Shown here in pieces: positions 17,143 to 17,981 of a stretch of 64,000 nucleotides of DNA (position 1 is the first letter of the stretch; every line of letters starts with the position of its first letter). Position numbers and translations under genes: made by a program. The notes under the pieces were generated by a model. That model searched no databases and had not been told where the DNA came from. It saw only the letters and a program-made list of their open reading frames with translations. The stretch is taken from assembly GCF_004362055.1 (NCBI RefSeq), contig NZ_SNXB01000014.1:1-64000 (forward strand). The letters are read 5' to 3'. Source of the DNA: Flavobacterium sp. 245 (GTDB lineage Bacteria > Bacteroidota > Bacteroidia > Flavobacteriales > Flavobacteriaceae).

Positions 17143-17228
17143 GAAATTATTTACCTAAGAAAGAATTTGAATTAGGGGCGTTTGTGCGTATTAATTTATT
17201 ATGAAAAATTAAAAAACGTATTATATCT

Positions 17229-17332
17229 AAACTGGACTGAAGTCCAGCCCTACAATATATTTAGAGCCGATGGCTCTTTTAAAAGTTCCGGAGGAACTAT
17301 CTATTTTGTAGAGCTGGACTTCAGTCCAGTTT
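17229..17332 (+). repeat. Left REP doublet (REPIN)
   Basis: Four hairpins: CTGGACT-GA-AGTCCAG (17232-17247), AGAGCC-GAT-GGCTCT, AGTTCC-GGA-GGAACT and CTGGACT-TC-AGTCCAG (17314-17329). The outer 26 bases at each end are inverted copies of each other with one mismatch. GTAG precedes the outer hairpins at 17308-17311 (plus) and 17250-17253 (minus strand). Confidence 0.9.
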
Positions 17333-17405
17333 TAATTAAAGATTGGGATTATTTAAAATTGTAGGATAATTTGTATTTTTGCGCCTGATTTTTAATTTAG
17401 AAAAA

Positions 17406-17867
17406 ATGTCCAACACCTATCACCAAGTTTATATTCAGGCAGTTTTTGCAGTGAAGAATAGAGGGGCACTAATTAGTGATGACTGTAAAGCTCAAATATT
17501 AAGCGTGATTGGAAATTCTATAAATGAAACAGGATGCAAAACCATTATAGTAAACGGAACTGAAGATCATGTTCATTGTCTTTTAGGTCTCAAACCAACA
17601 ATTTCTATTTCAGAATTAATGAGAATAGTTAAAGGAAAATCGTCAAGATTTATTAATGACAAACAATTGACGAAGCATAAATTTGAATGGCAGGAAGGAT
17701 ACGGTGTTTTTTCATACAGTAAATCACACATTGATGCCGTATATAAATACATCGTCAATCAAGAAGAACATCACAAAAAACAAAATTTCAAAAACGAATA
17801 TTTATTCCTGTTAGACAAATACAATTTCAAATATGACGAAAGATATGTTTTTGAAAATTTAATATAA
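17406..17867 (+). CDS. REP-associated tyrosine transposase (IS200/Y1 family)
   Basis: 153 residues from the ATG at 17406; an in-frame TTG at 17379 would add nine residues that do not look like family sequence. The Y1 single-strand endonuclease motifs are complete: the HUH pair H55-V-H57 in TEDHVHCLL and the catalytic tyrosine Y115 in YIVNQEEHH. RAYT proteins nick single-stranded REP hairpins next to a GTAG tetranucleotide. Here four such sites flank the gene. The stop is only 10 bases from the right repeat. A TATTTTTG -7 box (17374-17381) lies upstream. It appears intact. Confidence 0.92.
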   Translation: MSNTYHQVYIQAVFAVKNRGALISDDCKAQILSVIGNSINETGCKTIIVNGTEDHVHCLLGLKPTISISELMRIVKGKSSRFINDKQLTKHKFEWQEGYGVFSYSKSHIDAVYKYIVNQEEHHKKQNFKNEYLFLLDKYNFKYDERYVFENLI

Positions 17868-17877
17868 TCCTATTTTA

Positions 17878-17981
17878 AGCTGGACCGAAGTCCAGCTCTA
17901 CAAAATAGATAGTTCCTCGGGAACTTTTAAAAGAGCCATCGGCTCTAAATATATTGTAGGGCTGGACTTCAGTCCAGCTTA
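17878..17981 (-). repeat. Right REP doublet (REPIN), inverted copy
   Basis: Reverse complement of 17229-17332 with four mismatches. GTAG lies at 17957-17960 (plus) and as CTAC at 17899-17902 (minus). Some mismatches break stem pairs, e.g. CTGGACC-GA-AGTCCAG at 17881. Confidence 0.9.

Follow-up and report, generated by a model that had tools for sequence, protein, structure and literature searches.

When a small Y1 transposase gene lies between inverted hairpins with GTAG at their feet, is it a RAYT accompanied by its REPs, or can an enzyme of another lineage be paired with such repeats? The question is raised by a locus of Flavobacterium sp. 245 (contig NZ_SNXB01000014.1; genome of 5.29 Mb), located in a stretch of 64,000 nt that was analysed as a whole and is called the window here. 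A preliminary description presented this locus as a complete unit of REPINs and a RAYT gene. The reading that we consider likely is a REPtron-like REP–transposase pair, in which a low-copy, vertically kept enzyme of subclass 1.2 goes together with a composite four-hairpin REPIN.

Anatomy of the locus

The transposase gene, tnpA, is flanked by two 104-bp units that are identical at 100 of 104 positions when compared as inverted copies (105 of 111 for the extended arms). This layout and its coordinates were given correctly in the preliminary description, as were the intact HUH and tyrosine residues of the enzyme (D54-H55-V-H57 and Y115). The features of the locus, in window positions, are:

17406..17867, plus strand: tnpA, a 153-aa Y1 HUH transposase assigned to subclass 1.2 from profiles, alignment and fold (DHVH, WQ, YIVNQEEHH)
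17229..17332, unstranded: left four-hairpin REPIN unit, 104 bp, an inverted copy of the right unit that recurs in the genome
17877..17980, unstranded: right four-hairpin REPIN unit, 104 bp, an inverted copy of the left unit that recurs in the genome
17230..17253, minus strand: long hairpin with GTAG foot, GTAG-GG-CTGGACT-TC-AGTCCAG-TT, with homologous hairpins in relatives
17308..17331, plus strand: long hairpin with GTAG foot, read from the sequence, with homologues in relatives
17878..17901, minus strand: long hairpin with GTAG foot and one altered base beside the loop, read by eye
17956..17979, plus strand: long hairpin with GTAG foot, read from the sequence
17264..17276, unstranded: short hairpin GAGCC-GAT-GGCTC, spaced 10 nt from the left long hairpin's GTAG (sequence and genome pattern search)
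17285..17297, unstranded: short hairpin GTTCC-GGA-GGAAC, spaced 10 nt from the GTAG that follows (sequence and genome pattern search)
17912..17924, unstranded: short hairpin GTTCC-TCG-GGAAC (sequence and genome pattern search)
17933..17945, unstranded: short hairpin GAGCC-ATC-GGCTC (sequence and genome pattern search)

Each unit thus runs from a long hairpin through a 10-nt linker, a short hairpin, a few bases, a second short hairpin and another 10-nt linker to a second long hairpin, and its two short hairpins are of the types GAGCC-nnn-GGCTC and GTTCC-nnn-GGAAC. All four long hairpins carry GTAG, as first reported, 2 nt from a perfect 7-bp stem; if GG/AG pair with TT/CT, the stem grows to 9 bp and GTAG lies directly at its foot. 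The four feet point inward. The stem CTGGACT-nn-AGTCCAG, originally ascribed to both members of each doublet, is found in three of the four, the fourth being CTGGACC-GA-AGTCCAG, with one base changed. Folding of the 111-nt unit gave z-scores of -11.3 and -13.3 on the two strands, and a single long hairpin reaches about -4. For positions 17225-17335 in single-stranded form, there is also an alternative fold, on either strand, with one long hairpin that holds both short hairpins at its tip.

Conservation beside the gene and dispersal in the genome

Relatives of the gene were fetched by protein similarity alone, and the best 80 of 579 (60–92% identity), from Flavobacterium and other Bacteroidota, were compared. 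A perfect hairpin tagged with GTA[AG] lies within 400 nt of the gene in 70 of these best 80 of 579 relatives, on both sides of it at 38 of the 80 loci, versus 3 of 80 for a control stretch at 1,200–1,600 nt (available at full length for 68 of the 80). In numbers of tagged hairpins, the best 80 of 579 contain 194 in 63,252 nt near the gene versus 4 in 59,326 nt of control; 10 of the 80 have none within 400 nt by the criteria used. We also collected hairpins with foot and loop bases left free, asking for a perfect stem of at least 7 bp, a 2-nt loop and a distance of at most 400 nt. In 173 of the 211 hairpins of this set (best 80 of 579 relatives), one strand has GTAG or GTAA precisely where the 9-bp frame has its foot; base composition predicts about 0.02 per place. 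These 173 feet comprise 119 GTAG and 54 GTAA, and the loop is TT or TC in 167 of them.

The stems co-vary. Among 199 long hairpins for which foot, loop and the three apical pairs were required, pairs 4–9 are formed in 1,115 of 1,194 cells. In 200 shuffles this number averaged 855 and never exceeded 892; the contrast is no probability, because much of the co-variation comes from a small number of stem flavours in related rows. For 134 of these 199 long hairpins, a short hairpin is found no more than 40 nt from the foot on its 5′ side, the distance being exactly 10 nt in 122 of the 134; the inner hairpins of the preliminary description are therefore conserved in the relatives (best 80 of 579) as well as present in the window. 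ATATT precedes the foot, and past the long hairpin conservation stops after TTTA (145 contexts of one flavour); the first 20 nt on the 3′ side of the long hairpin contain no conserved CT that could mark a candidate cleavage site.

From these elements we define a half-module: a short hairpin (5 bp, 3-nt loop) is followed by a 10-nt linker ending in ATATT, then by GTA[AG] as the foot of a 9-bp long hairpin whose loop is T-T-[TC]-A; two inverted half-modules make up the unit of about 104 bp, the REPIN. Counted over 900 nt on each side of the gene, the best 80 of 579 relatives have 260 half-modules, at 73 of the 80 loci, and 51 complete units, at 32 of the 80. The two long arms of a complete unit differ at no fewer than 3 of 9 positions in 28 of the 51 units and at 4 or more in 21. 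We accordingly rejected a cruciform of the whole unit as the conserved structure and consider the local hairpins to be what is conserved.

Half-modules and complete units are both absent from 20 loci of a sister clade, all of which have hairpins of at least 5 bp with 2–4-nt loops within 400 nt of the gene (by a near-gene count alone). This combination of short hairpins with no long-hairpin module would suit a mosaic origin, in which the short hairpins are the REPs of a second subclass 1.2 TnpA, of the kind encoded at C4:414718-415176 in the source genome, captured between the REPs of the window TnpA. We regard such a capture as unlikely, since the best 80 of 579 relatives have 350 short 5-bp/3-nt hairpins near the window-type gene, at 75 of 80 loci, versus 11 in the control, at 8 of 80, and since the fixed 10-nt spacing from short to long hairpin suggests either a single substrate that has co-evolved or a common ancestral end.

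Further copies of the repeat, on which the preliminary description had made its reading depend, are present in the source genome: the 16-base core CTGGACTNNAGTCCAG occurs 21 times (reversed control, 0), and a BLAST search with the 111-bp arm gave 38 matches on both strands, which by our own count represent 20 distinct places, including the two window units. There are 38 occurrences of the apical pattern GGAYTTYARTCC versus 4 of its control, and 18 and 16 of the two short hairpins (controls, 2 and 0). The copies include complete units and half units with one long and one short hairpin. None of 17 inspected copies, out of the 20, overlaps an ORF of at least 100 aa by more than 10 nt, and 7 of the 17 lie within 30 nt of one. 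Two inverted REPs thus disperse as a unit outside genes, with partial units among the 20 places, and the REPIN-like layout proposed at the outset holds. A point against our reading is the modest copy number, given that REPs are put at more than 100 per genome in the available text of PMC2817692. C8:194523-195092 (L018, L020, L021) carries a tandem array of three units, spaced 233 bp apart and separated by terminator-like sequence.

Inheritance of the gene and association across the genus

The gene shares a neighbourhood at 40 of the best 80 of 579 loci: the same fumarase gene is found at most 3 kb from tnpA, and in 39 of those 40 the same spore-maturation-like gene is as well. TnpA identity at this locus falls to 62%, with neighbours that are 82–98% identical. 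In the window (17406-17867) and in L051 (3001-3459), tnpA is inverted relative to its neighbours, unlike in the other 39 relatives with the same locus; the inverted flanking units could have served as the recombination substrate for this inversion.

The fixed locus bears on the possibility of an ordinary IS200/IS605 element that moves as a unit and whose terminal hairpins are left behind as solo or MITE-like copies. PATE-like is the name for MITE-like copies of this kind. Such an element would agree with the lineage and fold of the enzyme and with hairpins on both sides of the gene. It is very unlikely nonetheless, as the source genome has a single window-type gene, the gene keeps its place in those 40 of the best 80 of 579 loci while TnpA diverges more than its neighbours, and the window flanks are near-identical complete units rather than distinct ends; moreover, the available text of PMC6006769 describes subclass 1.2 as low in copy number and devoid of IS properties. 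A canonical IS200 with imperfect left and right ends, named in the preliminary description as the finding that would overturn it, was rejected on the same grounds: the element is not multicopy, its locus is unchanged in 40 of the best 80 of 579 relatives, and its flanking units are near-identical.

In favour of our preferred reading, of a resident enzyme and its repeats, TnpA is under purifying selection. Among 23 genes (window and 22 relatives, each of 153 aa), the median dN/dS is 0.081 (range 0.026–0.177) over the 218 of 253 pairs with dS below 1.5. Both gene and repeats can also be absent from orthologous sites. The spore-maturation-like gene is present in 18 of 22 genomes that lack window-type TnpA, and the 18 stretches, taken to 1.5 kb past this gene, contain no tnpA match; the fumarase gene is also seen in 11 of them, with gaps of 87 to 1,121 nt versus 887 in the window. 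For the repeat copy at C5:42415, orthologous flanks in 20 relatives enclose repeat cores in 6 and none in 12, with 2 unresolved; the 12 coreless sites comprise 3 short ones (75–84 nt) and 9 with 589–734 nt of other sequence. The flanks of C3:309199, again in 20 relatives, enclose a full unit in 1, a half unit in 1 and none in 7, with 11 unresolved. The comparison of empty sites suggested in the preliminary description thus yielded units present or absent at orthologous sites, and the filled and empty sites are not base-exact. In L182 and L166 (G396), a TCCCGAnGCCTCGGGA-type palindrome was seen by eye once inside a REP hairpin and once inside a terminator-like hairpin, which looks as if another element targets hairpin tips.

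Across 398 Flavobacterium genomes, window-type TnpA (best E up to 1e-55) is found in 62, one of which, G279, has a partial TnpA with a stop. The pattern GTARRGCYGGAYTTYARTCCRG, drawn from the stem flavour of the window itself, occurs in 49 of these 62 genomes versus 30 of the 336 others (Fisher p 7.7e-30, uncorrected for shared descent), and its reversed control in none of the 398. Mean copy numbers are 9.9 with window-type TnpA, 0.81 in 129 genomes with other TnpA matches only and 0.11 in 207 with none. A second flavour, GTAR-CAACGG, is found in 9 of the 13 TnpA genomes that lack GTARRGCYGGAYTTYARTCCRG versus 1 of 13 genomes with no TnpA match, and also in 5 of 6 genomes reached via L098, L103, L104, L107, L124 and L130. 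Two observations count against our reading. By exact pattern, neither flavour occurs in 4 of the 62 genomes with window-type TnpA. Eight genomes (G075, G108, G121, G183, G217, G338, G375 and G393) keep at least 5 repeats (5 to 26) without an intact window-type TnpA, which means that repeats can persist after the enzyme is lost or depend on a different one. G183 has 26 repeats and an 87-nt gap at the usual gene site. Three repeat cores remain at that site in G375.

These eight genomes, together with the intergenic position of the 17 inspected copies and the 7 within 30 nt of an ORF, are what could be expected if the hairpins were host RNA features, such as terminators or mRNA stabilisers, beside which the transposase has inserted or is inactive. 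We find this explanation hardly credible in view of the repeat number that follows window-type TnpA, the conserved 10-nt linker with its ATATT-GTAG end, the orthologous sites with and without repeats and the purifying selection on TnpA.

Enzyme class, proposed mechanism and known systems

The product of tnpA scores 93.5 bits against Pfam Y1_Tnp and 72.4 bits against the NCBIfam IS200/IS605 equivalog, above its cut-off of 55. With the RAYT model (NCBIfam REP_Tyr_transpos), it scores 27.2 bits, below the cut-off of 80; two class 2 genes of the same genome reach 110.3 and 60.2 bits, the second also falling below. An alignment of 27 sequences has D54, H55, H57, W95, Q96, Y115, N118, Q119, H122 and H123 invariant, and the tyrosine motif is YIVNQEEHH (Y---Q--HH) rather than the Y---NP of class 2. 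A sequence search against solved structures matched IS200-type transposases, and the E. coli RAYT 4er8 was not among the matches at E up to 1. For an AlphaFold2 model built from the 27-sequence alignment (mean pLDDT 87.1), the highest Z-scores belong to ISDra2, IS608 and other IS200-type TnpA (11.3–12.4), followed by 4er8 (9.9), whereas the query-normalised TM-score from Foldseek is 0.60 for 4er8 and 0.54–0.59 for IS200-type chains; as Z favours the IS200 side and the TM-score does not, fold alone does not decide the class.

A canonical class 2 RAYT/TnpAREP REPtron, with membership and mechanism as in E. coli or Stenotrophomonas, is the least probable of all explanations, because the GTAG-tagged paired hairpins that flank the gene and recur in the genome, and the clear fold match to 4er8, with a TM-score as high as for IS200-type chains, are opposed by the profiles (one of the two class 2 genes passing the RAYT cut-off), the motif, the IS200-type matches of the structure search and the top Z-scores of IS200/IS605 TnpA; by profile and motif, we regard canonical RAYT membership as refuted.

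As judged from profile and motif, the enzyme of our REP–transposase pair is on the IS200 side, within subclass 1.2, and is not a RAYT in the strict sense. Of the earlier label, the REP-like layout of gene and repeats survives, and the class does not, given the RAYT score and the subclass 1.2 motifs. The subclass 1.2 TnpAY1 of Quentin et al (2018; PMC6006769, available text), which occur in Bacteroidetes and also have cyanobacterial members, are proteins of about 150 aa with DH[IV]H, WQ and YIxNQxEHH, and the window enzyme shares the IS200-side profile, these motifs and the length. Low copy number is likewise found, the source genome having one window-type gene and two lesser matches. The REP column of Table 1 in PMC6006769 reads 'no' for this subclass; here, 70 of the best 80 of 579 loci have tagged hairpins. 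The REP association amends the description of subclass 1.2, not the membership of the enzyme in it. The locus also displays a class 2 trait, dispersed flanking REPs tagged with GT[AG]G, with 54 of 173 feet being GTAA in the relatives (best 80 of 579). Since the enzyme is IS200-sided, the likeness to E. coli and Stenotrophomonas REPs remarked on earlier crosses a family boundary, and the resemblance is the more interesting for an enzyme outside the RAYT class. WQ was dropped as a marker of GTAG reading, the published subclass table giving no clean split: subclass 2.6 has WQ without GTAG, and GTAG REPs occur in 2.2 and 2.8, whose residues are WE and W[YH] (PMC6006769, available text).

The source genome has four more Y1 genes, at C4:414718-415176, C20:20072-20350, C4:293088-293336 and C2:236963-237151 (L046, L048, L049 and L050), two of which are class 2 by motif. 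Three of the four adjoin hairpins of their own, of the types GTCCC-nnn-GGGAC, CCGTGGTT/CCTGCGGTT and CGGATT-nnn-AATCCG, and the fourth seems, by eye, to hold a GTAG-tagged hairpin within its reading frame.

Anatomy, conservation, co-varying stems, repeat–gene association, dispersal, presence or absence at orthologous sites and selection on the enzyme are observed; cleavage and mobilisation by TnpA we infer by analogy with TnpAREP and IS608 (PMC8266576, available text). The unit would become single-stranded, for instance on the lagging-strand template, a TnpA dimer would bind its long hairpins with the GTAR foot as a guide, and Tyr115 would cut and re-join the DNA; the unit would then spread in trans, with the gene itself staying put. 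Given its fixed 10-nt spacing, the short hairpin probably offers TnpA a further point of contact. A wider proposal, plausible though short of probable, is that REP pairing extends beyond RAYTs, with subclass 1.2 running its own Bacteroidota REPs and one TnpA reading two unlike hairpins at a 10-nt spacing. The short hairpin, resembling those of the sister clade, may be an ancestral IS end, in which case the group may preserve a route from IS to REP that is independent of the RAYT route.

The unsettled question of how an IS transposase becomes a resident enzyme that serves short repeats is discussed mainly on the evidence of RAYTs. If our reading is true, a second, IS200-side lineage makes it testable by comparison within one well-sampled genus, which offers gene–repeat pairs, losses and orphan repeat populations, and provides small enzymes suited to biochemical work. 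A published negative, the 'no' for REPs in subclass 1.2, is amended as well. Y1 enzymes, REPs and REPINs are already known, and the pairing with subclass 1.2 and the composite four-hairpin unit appear to be new, neither having been found in print in the open-licence literature searched. In their available portions, PMC12306157 tabulates two Flavobacterium genomes and has no word beginning 'transposase' or 'RAYT', and PMC11194056 names RayT genes in Chryseobacterium and has no word beginning 'palindrom'.

Among known systems, subclass 1.2 as published (PMC6006769, available text) agrees in motifs, length, copy number and host phylum and differs in its 'no' for REPs, against the tagged hairpins at 70 of the best 80 of 579 loci and the dispersed repeats found here. 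The E. coli REPtron (class 2.2, 4er8) likewise combines an HUH-Y1 enzyme with inverted pairs of GTAG hairpins around the gene and intergenic copies, and its enzyme is of a class other than that of the Flavobacterium TnpA. We know of no short companion hairpin at a fixed distance in E. coli REPs. A bulge is required in the stem of E. coli REPs (PMC8266576, available text). IS608 and ISDra2 (subclass 1.1) provide the folds with the highest Z and recognise hairpins with a tetranucleotide guide 5′ of the hairpin (PMC8266576, available text), but they are insertion sequences with left and right ends, whereas here the gene is fixed in 40 of the best 80 of 579 loci and the repeats disperse. The nearest published parallel on the substrate side is the REP of the Marinomonas REPtron Mb (group 3 TnpAREP), where 2 nt separate GTAG from a perfect stem and the loop is T-T-T-A, in which the outer T and A are thought to pair, compared with T-T-[TC]-A here; it differs in its class 2 enzyme and 5-bp stem, and a four-hairpin unit is not described for it in the available text (PMC8266576).
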